Positions 51,590-62,341 of a stretch of 64,000 nt of DNA are shown here, piece by piece (the stretch's first letter is position 1; each line of letters opens with the position of its first letter). Where the stretch lies: NCBI RefSeq assembly GCF_001428895.1, contig NZ_LMJA01000033.1:62001-126000 (forward strand), in the 5' to 3' direction. The notes beneath the pieces are model-generated. The model had not been told where the DNA came from and ran no database searches. It was given only the letters and a program-made list of their open reading frames with translations. Origin of the DNA: Mycobacterium sp. Root265 (GTDB lineage: Bacteria; Actinomycetota; Actinomycetes; Mycobacteriales; Mycobacteriaceae). The translations under genes and the position numbers were made by a program.

Positions 51590-52765
51590 TCAAGCGACAG
51601 GCGAACCAGGTTCGACGGCCGGGCTACGCGGATCAATCAGGATCTTGGCCTGCGATTCCGGATCCCCGAGCGCTTGGAACGCTGCGGCCACCCCGTCCAG
51701 GCCGACGGTGCCGGTGACCAGAGCCGACGCATCGACCTTGCCGTCGGCCAGCAGGTAGAGGGTGTCCCGGAATTCCAGCGGGGTGTAGGCGAAGACGAAC
51801 CGCAGGTCGATCTCCTTGCCGTTCGCCATCGCCGGGCGTAGCCGGTCGTCGCCCATGCAGACCCCGACCACGATCACCCTGCTGGCCACGGGTGCGGCGG
51901 CGATGGCGCCGTCAATCATGCCCGGCACCCCGACGCACTCGAAGATCACCGGGCTCTTCGGTCCGGCCGCGCCCAGCTTGTCCGCGATCCGGTAGAGGTG
52001 CGCCCAGCCCGGCACCTTGCGCAGCTTCTCCATCGAGCCCATGCCGAGTTCGTAGAGATCGGGGGCCGCGGTGATGACGCCCTTCTGCGCGGCGACCCGG
52101 TCATAGGGCGAGTCGTGCGCCGGATCGACCACCACATGGGCGCCGCACCGGGTAGCAAGCGCGCGGCGGGTCGGCGAGTAGTCGCTGGCGACGATGGTGG
52201 CCACACCCTGAGCCTTGAGGTGACAGATGACGGCCAGCCCGACCGGTCCGCAGCCGATCACGATCGCGGTGTCCCGGCGTCCGATATCGCTGCGCCGGAC
52301 GGCATGCAGCGCCACCGCCATCGGTTCGGTGAGTGCGGCGGTGTCGACATCCAGGCCGTTGGGCACCACGAAACTCATGGCGGCCTCACCGAGTACCTGT
52401 TCGGCATAGCCGCCCGGCGCCAGCGGCGACAGCCCGGTCAGATGCACTCCGCCGTTTGCCCGCAGCAGCGGAAAGGACACCACCGTGGTGCCGACCTTGA
52501 ACTCCTTGGCGACCCCGCGGCCGCGCTCGGCCACCTCCCCGCAGAATTCGTGGCCCAGGACAGTCGGGGTGTCCCCACGCATGAAATCGGGGTATCCGAC
52601 CGCGTCCATCACCTCGGTGAGCTCATCGGCGTGGTCCTTGGCGTGCAGATCGGACCCGCAGATACCGCATCGCCGCACGTCGAGCAGCAACTGCCCGCGG
52701 GCGGGCTGCGGTGTGGGCATCTCGACCACGGACAGTTCGCCGGACAGACAACTGACAGCCTTCAT
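51590..52765 (-). CDS. Zinc-dependent alcohol dehydrogenase family protein
   Basis: 391-residue MDR-superfamily enzyme. Catalytic zinc ligands in CGICGSDLH and GHEFCGEV, coenzyme-binding IGCGPVGLAVI (about 175) with a following acidic residue in ASDYSPTR suggesting NAD. The four-cysteine structural zinc loop seen in classical ADHs is not evident. Substrate unknown. The ATG at 52765 has GAAGGGAAA upstream. Divergent from the large secreted hydrolase at 52877. Confidence 0.9.
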   Translation of the reverse strand: MKAVSCLSGELSVVEMPTPQPARGQLLLDVRRCGICGSDLHAKDHADELTEVMDAVGYPDFMRGDTPTVLGHEFCGEVAERGRGVAKEFKVGTTVVSFPLLRANGGVHLTGLSPLAPGGYAEQVLGEAAMSFVVPNGLDVDTAALTEPMAVALHAVRRSDIGRRDTAIVIGCGPVGLAVICHLKAQGVATIVASDYSPTRRALATRCGAHVVVDPAHDSPYDRVAAQKGVITAAPDLYELGMGSMEKLRKVPGWAHLYRIADKLGAAGPKSPVIFECVGVPGMIDGAIAAAPVASRVIVVGVCMGDDRLRPAMANGKEIDLRFVFAYTPLEFRDTLYLLADGKVDASALVTGTVGLDGVAAAFQALGDPESQAKILIDPRSPAVEPGSPVA

Positions 52766-52876
52766 AGGTATTTCCCTTCGTCAGTACCTGAGTATGGCGG
52801 TCGGTCAAAACCCCCCATAAAGCTTTCGCCCCTGTCAATATTCGGAGGGATCCAGGTGCCAATGTCAGGGGAATTC

Positions 52877-54496
52877 ATGGAACGCCTTTCGGTGTGGGTA
52901 AGTGCTGGGCTGCTGTCGGCCGGAGTGTCGGCGGCGGTGCTGGCAGGCGCCGGCGTCGCGGCAGCCGATGACTCGACGTCGGGCACCGGTTCGGGCTCGG
53001 AGCCCGGTTCGTCGTCCTCGGCGGGCGGCACCCAGACCGACAGCCCCGCTGACACGGATACCGACACCGACACCGACACCGAACCCAAGGCGACAGCGGA
53101 ACCCGAGGCCGAGGCAACCGGGAAACCCGTGGACGACGCCGTCGGCGACACCCCGAAGAAAAAGAAGCGCAACCTCACCGCGCGGACCACGGCCGTGACG
53201 GCGCTCAAACCGCACTCCGCACCGGTGACCGCGAGCGCACCCGAGCGATCGGCGACGGTCGCCGCCGAGACGGTGGAGACCGTCCCCGGTGTCGCGACGC
53301 CCGCGGTGACCGACATCAGCTCCGGCGGCGCGGCCGCCGTCGCGAGGATCACCGCGCAGCCGAACGTGTCCCTGGCGCTGGCCGCACCCGAGGCCGCCGC
53401 CCCGGTGCAGGCCGCTGCCGCCTCGCCGCCGAACCTGATCCGCTGGCTGCAGGGCGTGGCGGACAGAATCACGGGCGGGATCGCCTCCCTGGCGTTCAAC
53501 TCGTTGCAGGCGCTGGAGGCGCTCGTCACCGGCCCACCGGTGCTGCCCCCGAACAGCACTGTGACGGTGCGCAACTCGACGATTCTGCTGTCCACCGGGC
53601 AGCGGGTGAAGGCGAACTGGTACTACCCCGAGGGGGATGTGGTGCCGACGAAGCTGATCGTGTTGCAACACGGCTTCTTCGCGCTCGGTCCGATGTACAG
53701 CTTCACCGCGGCCAACCTCGCCGCATCCACCGGAGCCATCGTGGTGACACCCACGATCTCCTCGAATCCCTATGCCGGTGACGACAGCTGGATCAACGGT
53801 GACGGTCTGGCCGCCGCCATCGCCGACCTGTTCGACGGTGACCGCCAGGCGTTGACCGACAGCGCGCTGGCCGCGGGCTTCGCCACCCGTTACGGCCTGG
53901 ACCCCGCAGAGGCGCGGCTGCCCGAGAAGTTCGGGCTGGCAGGCCATTCGGCCGGCGGCGGGCTGGTGGCCGCGGTCGCCGGTTACCTCGTGGACAACGG
54001 TGACGCCGACGACCTGGTCGGTGTCATCACCTTGGACGGCGTGCCGCTCGGCAGCGCCGCAGTGGTCGCGCTGGGCAAGCTGCAGGCTTACGAAACCGCC
54101 ACCGGCCGTTACATCCCGGTCCGTGAGATCGGCGCACCGCCGAACTCCTTCAACTCCAACAGCAACCTCAAGGCGGATCTGAACGCGGCCCGGCCCGGCC
54201 GGTTCAACGGCGTGGTGCTCGCCGGTGGCGTGCACATGGACTCGATGCGGGGCGGCAACCCCGTCGTGCAGTTCGTCGCCTCGCTGCTCGCGGGCTTCCC
54301 GCGGCCGCAGAACCCGCCCGCCGTCGTGCAGCTGTCCACTCAGTGGTTCAACGACTGGTTCGCCGGTGACACCGACAACGGCGATGAACTGGTACCCGGG
54401 TCGACGGTACCGATCAGCACACCGAACGGGACCGCCCAGGGCACCGTGATCGGATCCGCCTTGCCGGCAACCCGGTTCGTCACCGTCGCGGTATAG
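52877..54496 (+). CDS. Secreted alpha/beta-hydrolase-like protein with long disordered N-terminal region
   Basis: 539 residues. The signal peptide (MERLSVWVSAGLLSAGVSAAVLAGAG..., shown in part) ends near AAADD. Then about 150 residues are low-complexity: a Gly/Ser stretch, a DTDTDTDTDT repeat (59-68) and KKKKRN. From about residue 225 a hydrolase domain: LIVLQHGFFALG, the nucleophile in GLAGHSAGGGLVAAVAG and VITLDGVPLG, with a candidate histidine in GGVHMDSM. Probably an exported esterase or lipase. ATG at 52877 has AGGGGA just upstream; an ATG at 52862 is an alternative. Confidence 0.85.
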   Translation: MERLSVWVSAGLLSAGVSAAVLAGAGVAAADDSTSGTGSGSEPGSSSSAGGTQTDSPADTDTDTDTDTEPKATAEPEAEATGKPVDDAVGDTPKKKKRNLTARTTAVTALKPHSAPVTASAPERSATVAAETVETVPGVATPAVTDISSGGAAAVARITAQPNVSLALAAPEAAAPVQAAAASPPNLIRWLQGVADRITGGIASLAFNSLQALEALVTGPPVLPPNSTVTVRNSTILLSTGQRVKANWYYPEGDVVPTKLIVLQHGFFALGPMYSFTAANLAASTGAIVVTPTISSNPYAGDDSWINGDGLAAAIADLFDGDRQALTDSALAAGFATRYGLDPAEARLPEKFGLAGHSAGGGLVAAVAGYLVDNGDADDLVGVITLDGVPLGSAAVVALGKLQAYETATGRYIPVREIGAPPNSFNSNSNLKADLNAARPGRFNGVVLAGGVHMDSMRGGNPVVQFVASLLAGFPRPQNPPAVVQLSTQWFNDWFAGDTDNGDELVPGSTVPISTPNGTAQGTVIGSALPATRFVTVAV

Positions 54497-55762: not shown

Positions 55763-56611
55763 TTATTCGCCGGCCAGGAATGCGATGGCATCGGGCACGA
55801 AGGTCTCGTGATGTTGAAAGATCCCACCGTGGCCGGACCGTGGATAGATCTTCAGCATGGCGTTGGGCAGTCGACGCGCCAAGTCGGCCGAGTGACTGCT
55901 GGCCACCATGACATCGTGGTCACCGTTGGCGACTAACACCGGCGCGGTGATGGCGGACAGATCATCGGGGGCGCTGAGACCGGCCCGGCGGATCGCCTTG
56001 AGTTGTCCGATCCTGGCCTGGAGCCTGATCTTCTCGTCGCGGTCAGACGTCCGCTGTGCGAGTCGGCGGAAGTACTCCGACGCCGCGCGCTTGCCCTCGC
56101 CGGTGCGGGGAAAGAACAGGAAGTTCCTGGCATCGCTGAATGTCAGAGCTGCCTTGACGTACGCGATGGCCGTGATCACGGCGATGCGTTCGATACCACC
56201 TCCACCGCGTGGACCGGTACCCGCCAGGATCATGCGGCGCACGAGCTCCGGGGCCTGCAGCGCGACCATCTGGGCGACGCCCCCGCCCAGCGAGAACCCG
56301 AACAGGTCGACCTTGCGGTGGCCGAGCGCACGGATGAACGCGATGGCATCGGCGCCCATCGCCTCGACCGTCGGCGGCACCGTGGACCCCGTCCCGCCGA
56401 CTCCGCGATTGTCGAAAGCTATGACGCGGTGGCGGGCGGCGATCCCCTCGATGATCTTCGGGTCCCAGTCATCCAGCACGGCCATCAGGTGGTGCAGGAA
56501 CACCACCGGCACACCGGCGCCGGAACCGAGTTCGCGGTACGCGTAGGTGATGCCGTCGACATCGATCGTTCTGGTCGGCGCATCTTTCCAGCTCGTCGTC
56601 TTGGTGGTCAT
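55763..56611 (-). CDS. Alpha/beta hydrolase (cluster copy 1)
   Basis: 282 residues. Oxyanion region VVFLHHLMAVLDDWDP, nucleophile S107 in LFGFSLGGG, acid D231/D233 in VANGDHDV and H261 in SGHGGIF; no lid signature. Closest relative in the window is the protein at 59925, sharing TIDV-T-AYR, DNRGVG, GHGGIFQ and overall length, so a paralogous pair. An epoxide-hydrolase- or lactonase-like role is possible. ATG at 56611 follows AAAGGCGAC. The divergent TetR gene begins 102 nt away with two operators in between. Confidence 0.9.
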   Translation of the reverse strand: MTTKTTSWKDAPTRTIDVDGITYAYRELGSGAGVPVVFLHHLMAVLDDWDPKIIEGIAARHRVIAFDNRGVGGTGSTVPPTVEAMGADAIAFIRALGHRKVDLFGFSLGGGVAQMVALQAPELVRRMILAGTGPRGGGGIERIAVITAIAYVKAALTFSDARNFLFFPRTGEGKRAASEYFRRLAQRTSDRDEKIRLQARIGQLKAIRRAGLSAPDDLSAITAPVLVANGDHDVMVASSHSADLARRLPNAMLKIYPRSGHGGIFQHHETFVPDAIAFLAGE

Positions 56612-56653
56612 GTCGCCTTTCGCGGCCGTCACGCCGGTCGTGGTGCGCGTCCG

Positions 56654-56671
56654 GTATACCGATTGGTGTAC
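56654..56671. promoter_or_regulatory. TetR operator A
   Basis: GTATACC-GATT-GGTGTAC, between the hydrolase and the TetR gene. It matches the shared site GTAnACC-N4-GGTnTAC. Confidence 0.75.
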
Positions 56672-56688
56672 TTGTGCCCGTCACCGTA

Positions 56689-56706
56689 GTAAACCGATTG
56701 GTATAT
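56689..56706. promoter_or_regulatory. TetR operator B
   Basis: GTAAACC-GATT-GGTATAT, 8 nt before the TetR ATG and 35 nt after operator A. One base departs from the shared site. Confidence 0.75.
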
Positions 56707-56713
56707 TGCAACC

Positions 56714-57295
56714 ATGCGTGTACGAGATCGACTCACCTCGGCGACCGCCGTCCTGATGCAGCGCCACGGCGTGGCGGGTACCGGGATTGCGCGCATCCTG
56801 GAGACCAGCGGCGTCACCAGGCGGTCCATCTACCTGAACTTCCCTGGCGGCAAGGCCGAACTCGTCACTGCCGCAACACGTTTTGCGGGCGATGAGCTTT
56901 CGGGCACCATACGCGGCCTTGTTGACACGCCGGATCCTGTGGGTGCATTCGCCCGGATGTGGGGCACCGTCCTGTTGAGCACGGAGTTCGAAGGCGGCTG
57001 TCCCATCGTCGCTGCGGCCTGCAGCGGGGACGAAGCTCCCGAGGCCGCGGCGGCGGCCGCCGAGGTGTTCGCCACGTGGGGCACACTGCTCGCCGAACGC
57101 CTCATCCGCGACGGGATCGCCGAGGACGTGGCGCAGTCACTGTCGACGACCATCGTCGCCTCGATGGAAGGCGCGGTGATACTCGCACGCGCTGCGCGTT
57201 CGACCACACCCCTGGAACAGGTCGCCCATCACATCGAAGAACTCATCGCGGCGCACCGGCCGGCCGCACGGCAGCGCCGTCGCACAGAGAAATAA
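56714..57295 (+). CDS. TetR-family regulator of the oxidoreductase/hydrolase cluster (1)
   Basis: 193 residues. HTH around GVAGTGIARILETSGVTRRSIYLNFPGGKAEL; the C-terminal domain contains GGCPIVAAAC, the LmrA/YxaF-type subgroup. Divergent from the hydrolase at 55763 and followed by the SDR at 57409. Operators A and B sit in its own promoter, so it is likely autorepressed and controls the divergent hydrolase-OYE operon. A second TetR at 59224 has the same CP-type C-terminal motif and similar sites next to it, so the two may share operators. Confidence 0.93.
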   Translation: MRVRDRLTSATAVLMQRHGVAGTGIARILETSGVTRRSIYLNFPGGKAELVTAATRFAGDELSGTIRGLVDTPDPVGAFARMWGTVLLSTEFEGGCPIVAAACSGDEAPEAAAAAAEVFATWGTLLAERLIRDGIAEDVAQSLSTTIVASMEGAVILARAARSTTPLEQVAHHIEELIAAHRPAARQRRRTEK

Positions 57296-57310
57296 CACCG
57301 ATCGGTTTAC
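57293..57310. promoter_or_regulatory. Degenerate TetR operator C
   Basis: TAACACC-GATC-GGTTTAC: the right arm is consensus and the left matches in 4 of 7 positions. It overlaps the TetR stop codon. Confidence 0.4.
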
Positions 57311-57340
57311 ATGTCGCAGCCGCGACGTGTACCGTCCCAA

Positions 57341-57358
57341 GTACACCATTCGGTATAC
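57341..57358. promoter_or_regulatory. TetR operator D
   Basis: GTACACC-ATTC-GGTATAC, 51 nt before the SDR start. Arms match the shared site. Confidence 0.75.
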
Positions 57359-57408
57359 AAGGGACGAGGGTTCTCCTTTCTCCCATTTCCCACGAGAGGG
57401 AGAACCAC

Positions 57409-58233
57409 ATGCGCTCTGTACTGGTCACCGGCGCGGGCCGCGGCATCGGCCGCGCGATCACCGAGCACCTCAGCGGCCACGGATGGGAGGTGTACGCGAC
57501 GGCACGGTCCGATTCCGCCCTGCAGGGTCTCGACCGGCTTCCACACGTGCACGCCGTACCCCTCGGCATCACCGACCGGGACGCCATCGCCGCCCTTCCC
57601 GACCAGCTACCCGAAACGCTCGACGGTGTGGTCAACAATGCGGGCATCATCGTGAACGGACCGGTGGAGGGCCTGCACCTCGACGACCTGTCGCGGCAGT
57701 TCGAGGTGAACGTGACCGCTCAGATAGCGGTCACCAAGGCAGTACTGCCCCAGATCCGGGCCGCTCGCGGCCGGGTGGTGTTCATGTCCTCGGTCAGCGG
57801 GCTGATCACGACCCCGGGTACCGGTGCCTACAGCGCGTCGAAGTACGCGATCGAGTCACTCGCCGATGCGCTTCGGATAGAACTGCGGCCGTGGCACATT
57901 GCGGTGTCGCTCATCGAGCCCGGCCCCATCCGCACCGACATGTGGGGCGACATCCTCGTCGAGCACGACCGGATGGTGAACGCACTCGACCCCCGGCACC
58001 GCGCACTGTATTCCGCCCATCTGGGCGGTACCCGGCAGTTGCTCGGGCGTATGCAGAAGTTGGCCGCCGACCCGAAGAAGGTGGTCAACGCCGTCGAGCG
58101 CGCGCTGACCGCCAGGCATCCGCGACGCCGCTACCTTCTCGACAATCTCAGCCGCGTCCAGAAGCTCGTGGTGGCGCTCAGCCCCACGCCGCTGAACGAC
58201 GCGGTCCTGTCTGCGGCGACCACCCGCTCATGA
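57409..58233 (+). CDS. Short-chain dehydrogenase/reductase (cluster)
   Basis: 274-residue classical SDR: VLVTGAGRGIGRAI, DGVVNNAGI, active-site serine in VFMSSVSG and Y-x-x-x-K in YSASKYAIESLADALRIEL, with SLIEPGPIRTDMW as in 17-beta-HSD-like SDRs. ATG with GAGAGGGAGAA upstream. It overlaps the next gene (ATGA), so SDR and medium-chain dehydrogenase are co-translated. Operators C and D precede it. Confidence 0.93.
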   Translation: MRSVLVTGAGRGIGRAITEHLSGHGWEVYATARSDSALQGLDRLPHVHAVPLGITDRDAIAALPDQLPETLDGVVNNAGIIVNGPVEGLHLDDLSRQFEVNVTAQIAVTKAVLPQIRAARGRVVFMSSVSGLITTPGTGAYSASKYAIESLADALRIELRPWHIAVSLIEPGPIRTDMWGDILVEHDRMVNALDPRHRALYSAHLGGTRQLLGRMQKLAADPKKVVNAVERALTARHPRRRYLLDNLSRVQKLVVALSPTPLNDAVLSAATTRS

Positions 58234-59243
58234 AAGCCTTCACGGTCGACCGTTATGCGAAGAAGAGCGTCCTCCGCAAAGCGGAGATGCCCGAACCCGT
58301 CGTCGGCGCCGACGACGTCCTCGTCGAGATCCACGCCGCCGGGGTCAATCTGTTGGACGCCAAGATCCGCGACGGTGAGTTCAAACTGATACTGCCCTAC
58401 CGGCTGCCTCAGATCGCGGGCAACGACGTGGCCGGCGTCGTGCGGCGGGTGGGCGCCCGGGTACGGGATTTCGCGCCCGGCGACGAGGTGTACGCACGCC
58501 CGGACAAGGACCGGATCGGGACGTTCGCCGAGCTGATCGCGATGAACCACCGCGACGTCGCCCAAAAGCCCCGTGCGCTCGGCATGGTCGAGGCCGCCTC
58601 GCTACCACTGGTCGCCCTGACCGCGTGGCAGGCACTCGTCGAGAGCGCCGGCCTGCAGAAGGGCCAACGGGTCTTCATCCAGGCAGGCACCGGCGGTGTC
58701 GGCACCATCGCCATCCAGTTGGCCAGACATCTGGGCGCGACTGTCGCGACCACGTGCAGCCCCGGCAGCTTCGATCTGGTCAAGGGTCTGGGCGCCGACA
58801 TCGTGATCGATTACCGGACAGCGGAGTTCGAAGACGTCCTGAGCGACTACGACGTCGTGCTGCACAGCCAGGACACCGCCGCGCTGAAGAAGTCGCTGCG
58901 GATCCTCAAGCCGGGCGGCACATTGGTCTCCATCTCCGGGCCGCCCGATCACGTCTTCGGCGCGCAGATCGGAGCGCCCTGGTACGTCCGGTTGTTGCTG
59001 CGGGCACTCAGCTCGGGGACGCGACGGCGTGCCCGTCGGCTCGGCGTCCGCTTCCACTTCCTCTTCATGCGCGCCGATGGTGGGCAGCTGCGGGAGATCA
59101 CCACGCTGATCGATGCGGGCGCCATCCGTCCGGTGATGGACAGGGTGTTCCCGTTCGATGAGACCAACGACGCGCTGGCCTACGTCGAGTCCGGACGGGC
59201 CAAGGGCAAGGTCGTCGTCGCGGTCACGCCGGAGCGCGACTGA
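58230..59243 (+). CDS. NAD(P)-dependent alcohol dehydrogenase, quinone-oxidoreductase-like
   Basis: 337-residue zinc-free MDR protein: MKAFTVDRYAKK, VEIHAAGVNLLDAKIRDG, GNDVAGVVRRVG and the cofactor loop QAGTGGVGTIAIQLARHLGA. It lacks catalytic zinc cysteines, as in QOR/enoyl reductases that reduce activated double bonds. Coupled to the preceding SDR by ATGA overlap; the two could act in sequence on one compound. The 3' end overlaps the convergent TetR gene by 20 nt. Confidence 0.92.
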   Translation: MKAFTVDRYAKKSVLRKAEMPEPVVGADDVLVEIHAAGVNLLDAKIRDGEFKLILPYRLPQIAGNDVAGVVRRVGARVRDFAPGDEVYARPDKDRIGTFAELIAMNHRDVAQKPRALGMVEAASLPLVALTAWQALVESAGLQKGQRVFIQAGTGGVGTIAIQLARHLGATVATTCSPGSFDLVKGLGADIVIDYRTAEFEDVLSDYDVVLHSQDTAALKKSLRILKPGGTLVSISGPPDHVFGAQIGAPWYVRLLLRALSSGTRRRARRLGVRFHFLFMRADGGQLREITTLIDAGAIRPVMDRVFPFDETNDALAYVESGRAKGKVVVAVTPERD

Positions 59244-59832
59244 TCGCAGCGTCGAGCAGGGTCTGGGCGGCCTTCCTGGCGTGCGTCCAGGGTGCGGGGT
59301 CGTTGAGCGAGGTCGACATGGCGGCGGCCCCCTCGAAGAGCAATGCGAGCTGGTGGCCGAGCAGTTTGGGATTGGCCGCCCCCGCTGCGCGCGCCAGCGT
59401 GACGAGCCCGTCAATGTAGCTGCGCTTGTGCGCCTCGACGATCTCGTGCACCTCGGGCATACCGTCGGCGGCCTCGACAGCCGCGTTGTGGAACGGGCAA
59501 CCTCGCATCAGCCCTCCCGCCGGAGGCGTCTGGAACAGTGCCAGGATGCGTGACCTCGGGCTGCGGTTGGCCGCCGCGGGTCCGGGTACGACGGGATCAC
59601 CGACACCCTGCCTGATATGGCGCAGATACTCCTCGACCACGGCCGTCTTGCTCGGAAAGTGTTGATAAAGAGTGCGTTTGGAGACGTTGGCCTCGGCCGC
59701 GAGCCGCTCGACACCGGTGGCGTTGATGCCCTCCTGATAGAAGAGCCTGATGGCGGCGTCCAGAATCCGTTGGCGCGCCCCCCGGCCGCCGCGCCCGGGC
59801 GCCGGTTGCACATCAGATGTCACGGTCATCAC
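59224..59832 (-). CDS. TetR-family regulator of the oxidoreductase/hydrolase cluster (2)
   Basis: 202 residues. HTH: GINATGVERLAAEANVSKRTLYQHFPSKTAVVEEYL; C-terminal motif GGLMRGCPFHNAAVEA. GTG at 59832 or ATG at 59829. Divergent from the hydrolase at 59925, with operators E and F in between. Tail-to-tail with the MDR gene. Sharing operator sequence with the sites beside the first TetR suggests cross-regulation or duplicated regulation. Confidence 0.92.
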   Translation of the reverse strand: MMTVTSDVQPAPGRGGRGARQRILDAAIRLFYQEGINATGVERLAAEANVSKRTLYQHFPSKTAVVEEYLRHIRQGVGDPVVPGPAAANRSPRSRILALFQTPPAGGLMRGCPFHNAAVEAADGMPEVHEIVEAHKRSYIDGLVTLARAAGAANPKLLGHQLALLFEGAAAMSTSLNDPAPWTHARKAAQTLLDAAISRAPA

Positions 59833-59836
59833 CGAA

Positions 59837-59854
59837 GTATACCGCTTGGTTTAC
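59837..59854. promoter_or_regulatory. TetR operator E
   Basis: GTATACC-GCTT-GGTTTAC, 5 nt before the TetR start on the minus strand. Consensus arms. Confidence 0.75.
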
Positions 59855-59888
59855 ATCGCCCCGGCTGGCGTGTAGCGTCGGCAACGAA

Positions 59889-59906
59889 GTACACCGAACG
59901 GTATAC
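59889..59906. promoter_or_regulatory. TetR operator F
   Basis: GTACACC-GAAC-GGTATAC, 19 nt before the hydrolase start on the plus strand. Consensus arms. Confidence 0.75.
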
Positions 59907-59924
59907 ATGGAGAGGTGCCAACCG

Positions 59925-60761
59925 ATGAGCGCGCGAACGTACAGGGATACCCCGACCAAGACGATCGACGTCGGTGACACGACGTTCGCGTACCGCGACG
60001 TCGGCACCGCAGCAGGCGTGCCGGTGATCTTCCTCAATCACCTCGCGGCCGTCCTGGACAACTGGGATCCGCGCGTCGTCGACGGCATCGCCGCGCAGCA
60101 CCGCGTCATCACCTTCGACAATCGGGGCGTCGGAGCCTCCCGCGGTAAGACACCGACATCGGTGGCCGCGATGGCGGACGACGCCATCGCATTCATCCGC
60201 GCACTGGGCTTCGAGCAGGTCGATCTTCTCGGATTCTCGTTGGGCGGCATGGTCTCTCAGGAGATCGCTGCTCGGCGGCCGCAACTGATACGGAAGCTGA
60301 TCCTCGCGGGAACCGGGCCGGCCGGCGGTGTGGGCATCGACAAGGTGACGCGAGTGACGATCAGCGACACCACCAGGGCTCTGCTGACAGGCAAGGACCC
60401 GAAGGAGAATCTCTTCTTCACCAGAACGGCGCACGGCCGGGCGGAAGCCAAGCGCTTCGTCGGCCGGCTCAAGGAGCGGACCGCCGATCGTGACAAGTCC
60501 ATCTCCCCCTTCGCTTTCCGTGCCCAGCTGAAAGCCATCCACGGGTGGGGCGTTCAGCAGCCCGTCGACCTCTCCGGCATCCGGCAGCCGGTGTTCGTCG
60601 CCAACGGCGACGATGACCGGATGGTCCCCACCAGCAACTCACACGATCTGGCCCGTCGGCTCCCGAATGCGCAGCTGAAGATCTACCCGGACGCCGGGCA
60701 CGGCGGCATCTTCCAGTTCCACGACGAATTCGTCGCCCAAGCCCTCGAGTTCCTGCGATGA
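59925..60761 (+). CDS. Alpha/beta hydrolase (cluster copy 2)
   Basis: 278 residues. VIFLNHLAAVLDNWDP, nucleophile S105 in LLGFSLGGM, VANGDDDRMVP and catalytic histidine in AGHGGIFQFHDEF. Paralogous to the protein at 55763, with the same distance between motifs. ATG at 59925 follows GGAGAGG; an in-frame ATG 18 nt earlier is less well placed. It overlaps the next gene by 4 nt, so hydrolase and small membrane protein are coupled. Confidence 0.9.
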   Translation: MSARTYRDTPTKTIDVGDTTFAYRDVGTAAGVPVIFLNHLAAVLDNWDPRVVDGIAAQHRVITFDNRGVGASRGKTPTSVAAMADDAIAFIRALGFEQVDLLGFSLGGMVSQEIAARRPQLIRKLILAGTGPAGGVGIDKVTRVTISDTTRALLTGKDPKENLFFTRTAHGRAEAKRFVGRLKERTADRDKSISPFAFRAQLKAIHGWGVQQPVDLSGIRQPVFVANGDDDRMVPTSNSHDLARRLPNAQLKIYPDAGHGGIFQFHDEFVAQALEFLR

Positions 60762-61141
60762 GCAGCAGGCGGAGGTTGCAGTGGACACTGGGGCTGCTGG
60801 CCGCCCTGCCGGCGCAAAGCGCGGTCCGCGAGATCGTCGGGGGCCCAGCTGCGGTTCCCGGCGGCTCACCCGCTGTCGCACCGACCGTCGACAGTGCGCT
60901 CCGGTATGCCAACGTGTTCAAACTGGCTGTCGCACCGATCATCTGGTCGCAGCTGTCGCGCATCGAGCGCTCGGACGCCATCACGGTCGCCGGTGCCACC
61001 ATCGGTGCCGGCGGGCTGGCCCGGCTGTGGTCATGGAAGCAGGCCGGGCGTCCGCATCCGGTCACCGTCGGCGCGACCGCGCTCGAACTCATCGGCATTC
61101 CCGTCATCCTGGCGTGGCAGCGCAGCCTCGCCGACCGATGA
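60758..61141 (+). CDS. Small membrane protein, unknown function
   Basis: 127 residues. Three or four short hydrophobic stretches (LQWTLGLLAALPAQSAV; ALRYANVFKLAVAPIIWSQL; ITVAGATIGAGGLARLW; TVGATALELIGIPVILAW) suggest an integral membrane protein of the DUF4345-like type found with TetR/SDR genes. ATG overlaps the hydrolase stop. Function unknown; in this cluster a transport-accessory or membrane-anchor role is possible. Confidence 0.75.
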   Translation: MSSRRRLQWTLGLLAALPAQSAVREIVGGPAAVPGGSPAVAPTVDSALRYANVFKLAVAPIIWSQLSRIERSDAITVAGATIGAGGLARLWSWKQAGRPHPVTVGATALELIGIPVILAWQRSLADR

Positions 61142-61172
61142 CAGACATCCACACACCCCCAGGAGAAACGAC

Positions 61173-61868
61173 ATGACCTCACTGCACAACCAGACCGTGC
61201 TCGTCACCGGCGCCAATCGCGGGATGGGGCGCCACTACGTGACGCAGCTGCTCGATCGCGGGGTGGCCAAGGTGTACGCCGCCGCGCGTGACACCGCTCA
61301 GATCGACACCACCGACCCACGGGTCACCGCACTGACCCTCGATGTCACCGACGCCCGGTCGGTGGCCGCAGCGGCCGAGGCGGCGCGCGATGTCACCGTG
61401 TTGATCAACAACGCCGGCATCGTGCGCGGCGCCTCGGTACTGGACCGGGATTCCACCAAGCTGCGGGAGGAGTTGGAGACCAACCTCTTCGGGCCGCTCG
61501 CGCTGGCATCGGCGTTCGCCGACCAGATCGCCGACCAGGCCGGCGCGATCGTCAACGTGGCCTCGGTGCTGGCGTGGCTGCCCGTCGGGGCGAGCTACGG
61601 CGTATCCAAGGCCGCGATGTGGAATGCCACGGACTCGATGCGGCTCGAGCTCGCGGCGCGTGGTGTCCAGGTGGTCGGCGTCTACGTCGGGCTCGTCGAC
61701 ACCGACATGGCGTCGTTCTCCGACAGCCCGAAGTCCGACCCCGCCGACGTCGTGCGGCAGGTTCTGGACGGGATCGAAGCCGGCGCCGATGAGGTGCTCG
61801 CCGACGAGCTGACCCGCACCGTCCGCGCGGAGTTGAACAAGCCCGTGTCCGAACGCGCGCTGGGCTGA
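61173..61868 (+). CDS. Short-chain dehydrogenase/reductase (cluster, last gene)
   Basis: 231 residues. [28 protein letters not shown], serine in [11 protein letters not shown] and Y-x-x-x-K in [24 protein letters not shown] at 61161-61165. A 12-codon frame (61138-61176) starts on the stop of the previous gene and ends across this ATG, perhaps coupling translation. Last gene of the TetR-flanked cluster. Confidence 0.92.
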
Positions 61869-61903: not shown

Positions 61904-62203
61904 ATGCTTGTTGCCTTCAGTCTGACCCCGTCCGCCGCCGATGAGGACGGTGGCGTGCACCGGGCGGTGGCCGAAGCCGTCCGCATCGTGCGGGCATCCG
62001 GTCTCCCCAACGAGACGAACGCGATGTTCACCAACATCGAGGGTGAATGGGACGAGGTGATGGCCGTCGTCAAGCAGGCCGTGGACGCCGTCGCAGCCGT
62101 CTCGCCGCGGGTCGGCCTGGTGCTCAAGGCCGATATCCGCCCCGGGCACACCGGCCAGCTCAGCGCGAAGGTGCAACGCGTGGAACAGGCGCTCGAGCCC
62201 TAG
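61904..62203 (+). CDS. MTH1187/YkoF-type thiamine-binding-like protein
   Basis: 99 residues of the DUF77 ferredoxin-like fold: [53 protein letters not shown] (shown here only as the pattern, in part). Family members bind thiamine or its HMP precursor in a tetrameric shell. No thi gene is adjacent. A short gap and hairpin terminator separate it from the tRNA gene. Confidence 0.85.
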
Positions 62204-62213
62204 CTCCGCAAAC

Positions 62214-62248
62214 GAAAAGCTCCCCACCGGTGTGTACCGGTGGGGAGC
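62214..62248 (-). terminator. Terminator of tRNA-Ser(CGA)
   Basis: GCTCCCCACCGG (62219-62230) pairs perfectly with CCGGTGGGGAGC (62237-62248). On the minus strand it is followed by TTTTCGTTT, an intrinsic-type terminator just after the tRNA. It may also serve the plus-strand thiamine-binding-like gene. Confidence 0.8.
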
Positions 62249-62250
62249 CA

Positions 62251-62341
62251 TGGCGGTGGCGGAGGGATTTGAACCCTCGGACGGGGGTTACCCGTCACAC
62301 GCTTTCGAGGCGTGCTCCTTAGGCCGCTCGGACACGCCACC
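62251..62341 (-). tRNA. tRNA-Ser (anticodon CGA)
   Basis: On the minus strand the acceptor GGTGGCG pairs with CGCCACC, followed by discriminator G and encoded CCA. The anticodon arm CACGC-CTCGAAA-GCGTG gives CGA (reads UCG). There is a long variable arm of class II type and T loop GGTTCAAATCC. Confidence 0.96.

Follow-up and report, generated by a model that had tools for sequence, protein, structure and literature searches.

The subject of this report is a nine-gene block of Mycobacterium sp. Root265 that was examined within a 64,000-nucleotide stretch of contig NZ_LMJA01000033.1 (the window, to whose positions all coordinates refer). Two TetR-family regulator genes, TetR1 and TetR2, stand there among genes for an old yellow enzyme (OYE) flavin oxidoreductase, two alpha/beta hydrolases (ABH1 and ABH2), two short-chain dehydrogenases (SDR1 and SDR2), a medium-chain dehydrogenase (MDR) and a DUF4345 protein. 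Our interpretation, to which we attach a probability of about 0.7, is that two autoregulated TetR repressors using one type of operator have been merged into a single nine-gene regulon.

Several described systems resemble parts of this arrangement. The Bacillus subtilis repressors LmrA and QdoR are both of the LmrA type and the targets of their regulon include an efflux pump. The nemA product of Escherichia coli is an OYE-family reductase and morB of Pseudomonas aeruginosa encodes an OYE-type reductase, while the P. aeruginosa Cif protein has the alpha/beta hydrolase fold, epoxide hydrolases carry an aspartate at the nucleophile place, and EthA2 (Rv0077c) of Mycobacterium tuberculosis is an alpha/beta hydrolase.

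LmrA and QdoR (YxaF) are two TetRs controlling one small regulon that includes their own genes (by the title of Hirooka 2007, as cited in PMC8481877), and the available part of PMC8481877 describes paired operators at the qdoI promoter and a quercetin dioxygenase as a target. The present block likewise has two TetRs and paired operators, and TetR1 has an LmrA/YxaF-like C-terminal domain with YxaF as its nearest structure. It differs in that TetR2 is without PF21993 and in that the targets here are OYE, hydrolases, SDRs and MDR. The gamma-butyrolactone receptor and pseudo-receptor pairs of Streptomyces share their binding sites and regulate one another as well as common targets (available part of PMC7480387), and they too place two TetR-family regulators in one cluster. 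However, those pairs steer antibiotic signalling and both members are receptor-type, whereas the targets here are oxidoreductases and hydrolases, and the NF041196 scores of 22.1 and 33.8 bits fall below the cut-off of 150 for an ScbR-type receptor.

Systems with a single repressor provide the remaining comparisons. According to the excerpts of PMC3739934 and PMC8748444, E. coli NemR-NemA-GloA uses one repressor for the detoxification of reactive species. It shares with our block a TetR paired with an OYE-family gene and a cysteine at the position of NemR Cys106, but its genes are co-directional and include gloA, and Lys175, Cys21 and Cys116 of NemR are not conserved here. In the P. aeruginosa CifR-morB-MFS-cif system (MFS, major facilitator superfamily) the TetR gene is divergent from the operon and the inducer is an epoxide (PMC8244358, in part); two CifR binding sites are named in the title of Ballok 2012, cited in the same source. 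The divergent TetR, the operon with an OYE-type reductase and an alpha/beta hydrolase, and the two operator sites are all matched here, but that system has one repressor and an epoxide hydrolase, whereas ABH1 and ABH2 show GFSLGG with serine. M. tuberculosis EthR2-EthA2 (Rv0078-Rv0077c) has one repressor and one intergenic 21-bp operator occupied by two dimers (available part of PMC6016246). It is similar as a mycobacterial TetR divergent from its target gene with an intergenic operator, and Rv0078 is a weak profile match of TetR1 (E 2.4e-6); unlike in our block, no OYE, SDR or second TetR is described in that part of the paper. A literature search, judged by titles and the opening lines of abstracts and with most subscription journals outside its scope, returned no paper on this gene block or its operator, nor one evidently on cysteines of CifR. 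The statement of the first-pass annotation that it knew of no described mycobacterial system with this layout is thus not contradicted, although two TetRs on one operator and TetR-OYE pairs are both known elsewhere. The single parts are familiar and the combination is new, in that two repressors of distinct types, each in a module that exists alone elsewhere with the same operator, meet at one site.

Operators, promoters and the two TetR types

Both strands of the window were searched for the operator motif GTAnACC-N4-GGTnTAC, allowing up to two mismatches, with 100 shuffles as the control. Six matches constitute the full set (mean 0.69 and maximum 3 in the shuffles): four exact sites (56654, 57341, 59837 and 59889), one with a single mismatch (56689) and one with two (57293). 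All six, five with at most one mismatch and one degenerate, lie in promoter regions of the block, and every transcription unit has an operator in front of it, which also applies to the two regulator genes. The first-pass annotation had listed these six positions, had seen no such site elsewhere in the window and had assigned all of them to promoters. The search confirms the positions and, up to two mismatches, their confinement; operators overlap predicted promoter elements and recur in orthologous promoters.

Across the source genome (6,668,100 bases in 30 contigs, with the reversed pattern as control) five exact 18-mer matches were found, four of them in the block, compared with none for the control, and the motif is not abundant in unrelated promoters. 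Allowing one mismatch added seven sites. One of these is 56689 in the block; among the six outside it, five fall within long open frames with a third-position G+C above 0.8 and the remaining one inside a thiolase-like frame. With two mismatches the genome yielded 190 sites against 185 for the control, so the pattern is uninformative at this level, and the degenerate site at 57293 owes its credibility solely to where it lies and to the fact that it aligns in two relatives (loci L062 and L050). The 16-base core TAnACC-N4-GGTnTA had six exact genome matches, five of them in the block (control, 4). A chance origin of the operators is rejected by the window shuffles and the genome control pattern, and a genome-wide regulon is rejected as the six outside single-mismatch sites fall in coding-like frames. 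The presence of a close relative of the TetR1 promoter region on known plasmids was also rejected, a search having found no match; the G+C content of the block (65-70%) is like that of its surroundings.

The fifth exact operator, GTAGACCATTTGGTCTAC, is located at G000:C27:394840 (L006 4246-7929) in the intergenic region between a TetR1 paralogue, which carries PF21993 and is 43-46% identical to TetR1, and a divergent MMPL-family gene. On sequence grounds TetR1 might bind this promoter as well. Sites much like this one precede TetR homologues at loci L099-L103. The block had been called self-contained, which describes the near confinement of the sites to it but does not extend to this promoter.

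Within the block, the operators overlap predicted promoter elements in a recurring way. The predicted TetR1 -10, TATATT, lies 6 bp before the ATG, and TATATT or TATAGT occupies this place in 20 of 22 TetR1 rows, the exceptions being L051 and L061; such conservation would be expected if the mismatched part of operator 56689 is at the same time the -10. In the Gordonia rows the TetR1 start codon lies further downstream. The predicted TetR2 -10, TATACT, is also 6 bp before its ATG and overlaps an operator as at TetR1, and the same operator (59837) contains the predicted ABH2-side -35 TTTACA (59850-59855). Among 23 orthologous ABH2-side loci (26 minus three without a recognisable proximal operator) a TANNNT element is found at a spacer of 17 in 16 and of 18 in two. 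The SDR1 promoter appears to repeat this pattern of a -35 within an operator, a -10 and then a second operator. Its region, including 57293 and 57341, aligns in L062 and L050, and at the candidate SDR1-MDR -10 GTACCGTC is invariant across the three aligned sequences. The predicted transcription starts of the enzyme genes fall near 57342 (SDR1) and 59885 (ABH2). The ABH1-side promoter could not be fitted to the operator-promoter pattern of ABH2 and SDR1.

The two regulators that would read these operators differ in type. TetR1 matches PF21993 well above the cut-off of 27 bits and also PF16925 (41.0 bits), while TetR2 scores 33.1 bits on PF16925 and has no PF21993 match at E<=0.001; as both pass PF16925, they are related at that level. 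A BLASTP comparison aligned them only across 35-41 residues of the helix-turn-helix (HTH) at 31-32% identity, and recent duplication was rejected since the alignment is confined to the HTH. Both predicted structures are TetR folds (mean pLDDT 92.4 for TetR1 and 82.1 for TetR2). The best PDB match of TetR1 is 1sgm, YxaF/QdoR (E 1.6e-8, TM 0.80), which is also first by profile search, while TetR2 is closest to 3jsj and 3g7r. TetR1 and TetR2 are accordingly distant relatives of distinct type. They had been annotated as two TetRs of the same CP-motif type, and a GCP motif is indeed common to them, but their best-matching families differ (PF21993 versus PF16925).

Each regulator and its operator in related genomes

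A scan of species-representative genomes with TetR1 provided 63 loci, and whole-genome searches covered 148 genomes of the genus. Exact operators occur in 45 of the 148, summing to 75 sites against 11 for the control pattern. At E<=1e-30, TetR2 found a match in 42 and TetR1 in 84 of these genomes, the TetR1 matches being mostly below 60% identity; at 60% identity or more, TetR2 is present in 17, TetR1 in seven and both in five. In the 150 bp upstream of orthologues of at least 58% identity, a site with no more than one mismatch is nearly always present. This applies to all 21 TetR1 orthologues (two sites in 19) and to 24 of 25 TetR2 orthologues (two sites in 16), with L049, whose partial TetR2 is a contig-end artefact, left out of this and the TetR2 conservation count. 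The single miss, L116, does carry a single-mismatch site, placed at its start. Weaker TetR1 homologues retain an upstream site in 16 of 17 cases at 50-58% identity, 31 of 34 at 45-50% and 8 of 11 at 35-45%.

Genomes with one regulator support the association of each with the operator. No TetR1-like match at E<=1e-30 turned up in five genomes with TetR2 (G032, G074, G084, G091 and G105). Two exact operators stand at TetR2 in all of these but G084, which has only sites with one or two mismatches. Conversely, G064 and G109 have TetR1 with sites (all single-mismatch in G109) and no TetR2 match at E<=1e-30. As judged from these sequences, TetR1 and TetR2 each keep the operator type in genomes where the other was not detected. 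In 12 genomes that have TetR2 without a TetR1 of at least 60% identity, SDR2 (at least 75%) stands beside TetR2 in six, a weaker SDR (31-34% to SDR1) in five and neither in one.

Divergent OYE and TetR1 genes that enclose two operators are found in Mycolicibacterium, Mycolicibacter (L058) and Gordonia (L057, L060 and L061), and at lower TetR1 identity in Nocardia (L064-L066, L087 and L089); relatives thus have OYE-TetR1 divergent pairs, while in the window ABH1 stands between the two genes. These similar arrangements in relatives, together with the few sites elsewhere in the genome, speak for the compact regulon that the first-pass annotation had put forward. At L046 8576-11118 (Mycobacterium sp. 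OAS707), two TetR2 paralogues (77% and 61% identical to TetR2 of the window), each with an operator pair, lie beside TetR1.

One chromosomal site carries the modules in varying combination. The gene for a thiamine-binding protein that follows the block also does so in L062, L048, L050, G035 and G137. Beside it stands the TetR1 module in one relative (L048, M. sediminis, with OYE/TetR1/SDR1 to its left), the TetR2 module in two (G137 with OYE, TetR2 and SDR2, the OYE after TetR2 on the same strand, and G035 with TetR2 and SDR2) and both in two. The latter, L062 and L050, have nearly the gene set of the window, MDR not being found in the first and DUF4345 not in the second. In G032 the OYE gene comes after SDR2, downstream of TetR2 operators. 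OYE is thus found with either regulator: its neighbour is TetR1 in L048 and G064, whereas in G137 and G032, for which the search gave no TetR1 of at least 60%, it comes behind TetR2 operators. As a common flank the tRNA-Ser was seen in L062 only, one of six relatives' stretches scanned; in the window this tRNA-Ser (CGA) lies near the block at 62251-62341, with a 14-pair terminator-like hairpin behind it at 62218-62249.

Proposed control and competing explanations

The comparison supports the regulon, the operator and the association of each TetR with it, at the level of sequence; from these we infer binding, the promoters, cross-repression, an inducer and a substrate. The regulon would comprise ABH1-OYE, TetR1, SDR1-MDR, TetR2 and ABH2-DUF4345-SDR2, produced by fusion of an OYE-TetR1 module and a TetR2 module at one chromosomal site. 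When no inducer is present, repressor dimers on paired operators would block RNA polymerase, one operator overlapping the predicted -10 of the TetR gene and, at the TetR2/ABH2 promoter, the predicted -35 of the enzyme promoter, and the second lying at or just after the predicted enzyme start site. Binding of an inducer, or modification of an invariant cysteine, would release the repressor. Each TetR is predicted to repress the promoter of the other as well, so full induction would need the release of both. Probable substrates of the ene-reductase, the quinone-reductase-like MDR, the two SDRs and the two serine hydrolases are unsaturated carbonyl, quinone or ester compounds, which would be reduced and hydrolysed, and the set as a whole probably serves the breakdown or detoxification of some reactive compound.

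Two accounts of the sensing step are compatible with the merged regulon. A ligand switch of the LmrA/QdoR kind, in which an aromatic or terpenoid plant compound is the inducer and is then degraded by the enzymes, is the stronger candidate, though we hold it at somewhat less than even odds. YxaF/QdoR is the closest solved relative of TetR1 by sequence and fold, and QdoR is a quercetin-responsive repressor (PMC8481877, in part); yet ligand specificity does not follow from a similar fold at 27% identity, and neither a quercetin dioxygenase nor an efflux gene was found among the nine block genes. The other account, which we regard as doubtful, is a NemR-like thiol switch, with TetR1 C96 and TetR2 C111 sensing oxidants or electrophiles in a reactive-species detoxification response. 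These cysteines are present in 22 of 22 aligned TetR1 and 27 of 27 aligned TetR2 orthologues (27 of 28 TetR2 being used), and each of the three alignment modes tried places them at NemR Cys106. In addition, the first NemR entry (4yze) among the PDB fold matches ranks 8th for TetR1 and 13th for TetR2, and TetR1 usually neighbours an OYE gene, nemA being of this enzyme class. However, the GCP motif is not specific, since further solved TetRs of this subgroup (3qbm and 3eup) share it, so its cysteine is not by itself enough for a thiol sensor, and gloA is absent from the block. According to the available part of PMC3739934, Cys21 and Cys116 of NemR are critical for electrophiles and Cys106 is sufficient for hypochlorous acid (HOCl). 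The residues corresponding to Lys175, Cys21 and Cys116 are R159/T173, M15/F30 and D106/A121 (TetR1/TetR2), and a strict NemR thiol switch is rejected on this basis.

Several results weigh against a merged regulon with one operator specificity. A generic promoter scan found no consensus sigma-70 promoter in the block, and 5 of the 23 ABH2-side loci have no -10 at the spacers tested. Weaker TetR2 homologues keep the upstream site less regularly than those of TetR1 (9 of 12 at 50-58% identity and 0 of 1 at 35-45%). At position 4 of the half-site (GTANACC), ten TetR1-only loci show a G in 12 of 38 cases and twelve TetR2-only loci in 1 of 40, a difference with a Fisher p of about 0.0006 on related sequences. 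At most of the named loci the terms TetR1-only and TetR2-only refer to the fetched stretch and not to the genome; the TetR1-only set includes L060 (57.98%) and excludes L054, which corresponds to contig C16 of G106, a genome with a TetR2 on another contig. In genomes searched as a whole, G stands at position 4 in 2 of 8 half-sites (two TetR1 genomes) and 1 of 18 (five TetR2 genomes), too few to tell. Each family keeps the operator box where the other was not found, with differing usage at position 4, so the specificities of TetR1 and TetR2 are probably not identical. Finally, the gene set of the block varies between species, so that it does not demonstrate a single pathway. The single catabolic or detoxification route initially annotated is possible, but a repertoire for detoxification would agree equally well with the varying content.

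The same observations could be explained by two adjacent independent regulons, with TetR1 controlling only ABH1-OYE, itself and SDR1-MDR, and TetR2 only itself and ABH2-DUF4345-SDR2. The motifs would then be alike through distant kinship and be discriminated by position 4 of the half-site or by the central four bases. The position-4 difference, the separate occurrence of the modules in other genomes and the different best-matching Pfam families of the two regulators all agree with this explanation. Nevertheless, the motif cores are identical and OYE accompanies either regulator in other species. Furthermore, position 4 in the 12 half-sites of the window is A, C or T and never G, so nothing visible separates the two sets; we consider independent regulons unlikely. 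The letters used in the window occur at the operators of both families, and since its operators use only bases common to both, cross-repression is predicted. A wider version of the merged regulon can be put forward tentatively, at rather below an even chance. A single operator specificity would be common to the distinct TetR types, whether inherited from an old ancestor or reached through convergence, and the types would be interchangeable at one site, with OYE handed over between them. In the fused form the same operators would be occupied by both repressors, making the regulon a two-input gate whose full opening needs the release of both.

Gene content and meaning

Coordinates of the genes, operators and promoter elements are collected in Table 1. 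The first-pass annotation began the block at 55763 and so cut off the OYE gene, which belongs to it and lies 13 bp behind ABH1. ABH1 and ABH2 are 56% identical, both show GFSLGG with serine and are, by their sequences, duplicates. The best NCBIfam match of MDR is TIGR02824 PIG3, under the cut-off of that model, and the 3' ends of the MDR and TetR2 genes overlap by 20 bp (59224-59243). Seven OYE-family matches in the source genome, of which two share a frame, correspond to about six genes. To the left of the block, a long frame (51998-54496) contains an Asp-Thr-rich repeat stretch and has a C-terminal part that looks hydrolase-like by eye.

Table 1 Genes, operators and promoter elements of the block in window coordinates
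Feature	Position	Strand	Remarks
OYE, flavin oxidoreductase (ene-reductase), 414 aa	54505..55749	-	PF00724 169.8 bits; second gene of ABH1-OYE unit
ABH1, alpha/beta hydrolase, 282 aa	55763..56611	-	PF00561; nucleophile motif GFSLGG
Operator, exact	56654..56671	.	ABH1/OYE side of divergent promoter; kept in orthologous promoters
Operator, one mismatch	56689..56706	.	overlaps predicted TetR1 -10 TATATT (56702-56707)
TetR1, LmrA/QdoR(YxaF)-like repressor, 193 aa, predicted leaderless	56714..57295	+	PF21993 91.2 bits; nearest fold 1sgm
Degenerate operator	57293..57310	.	at TetR1 stop codon; holds candidate SDR1 -35 TTTACA (57306-57311)
Candidate -10 TACCGT, SDR1-MDR promoter	57330..57335	+	18-bp spacer; predicted from sequence
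Operator, exact	57341..57358	.	at predicted SDR1 transcription start
SDR1, short-chain dehydrogenase, 274 aa	57409..58233	+	PF00106
MDR, quinone-oxidoreductase-like medium-chain dehydrogenase, 337 aa	58230..59243	+	PF13602; start overlaps SDR1 stop
TetR2, TetR repressor of distinct type, 201 aa, predicted leaderless	59224..59829	-	PF00440, PF16925; nearest folds 3jsj, 3g7r
Operator, exact	59837..59854	.	overlaps predicted TetR2 -10 TATACT (59841-59836, minus)
Candidate -10 TAGCGT, ABH2 promoter	59873..59878	+	17-bp spacer; predicted
Operator, exact	59889..59906	.	just downstream of predicted ABH2 transcription start
ABH2, alpha/beta hydrolase, 278 aa	59925..60761	+	PF00561; nearest solved relative 4pw0
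DUF4345 protein, presumably membrane, 127 aa	60758..61141	+	PF14248
SDR2, short-chain dehydrogenase, 231 aa	61173..61868	+	NF006119, above cut-off
Thiamine-binding protein, right flank of block	61904-62203		PF01910

The locus and its relatives point to an ene-reductase and hydrolase regulon that is patchily distributed in mycobacteria, with an OYE-TetR1 unit that reaches Gordonia and Nocardia. Once the inducer is known, the paired operators could possibly serve as inducible parts. Above all, TetR1 alone, TetR2 alone and both together beside the same flanking gene form a natural series for the question of how distinct regulators come to share an operator, and the series also allows one to ask whether merged modules act as a logic gate.

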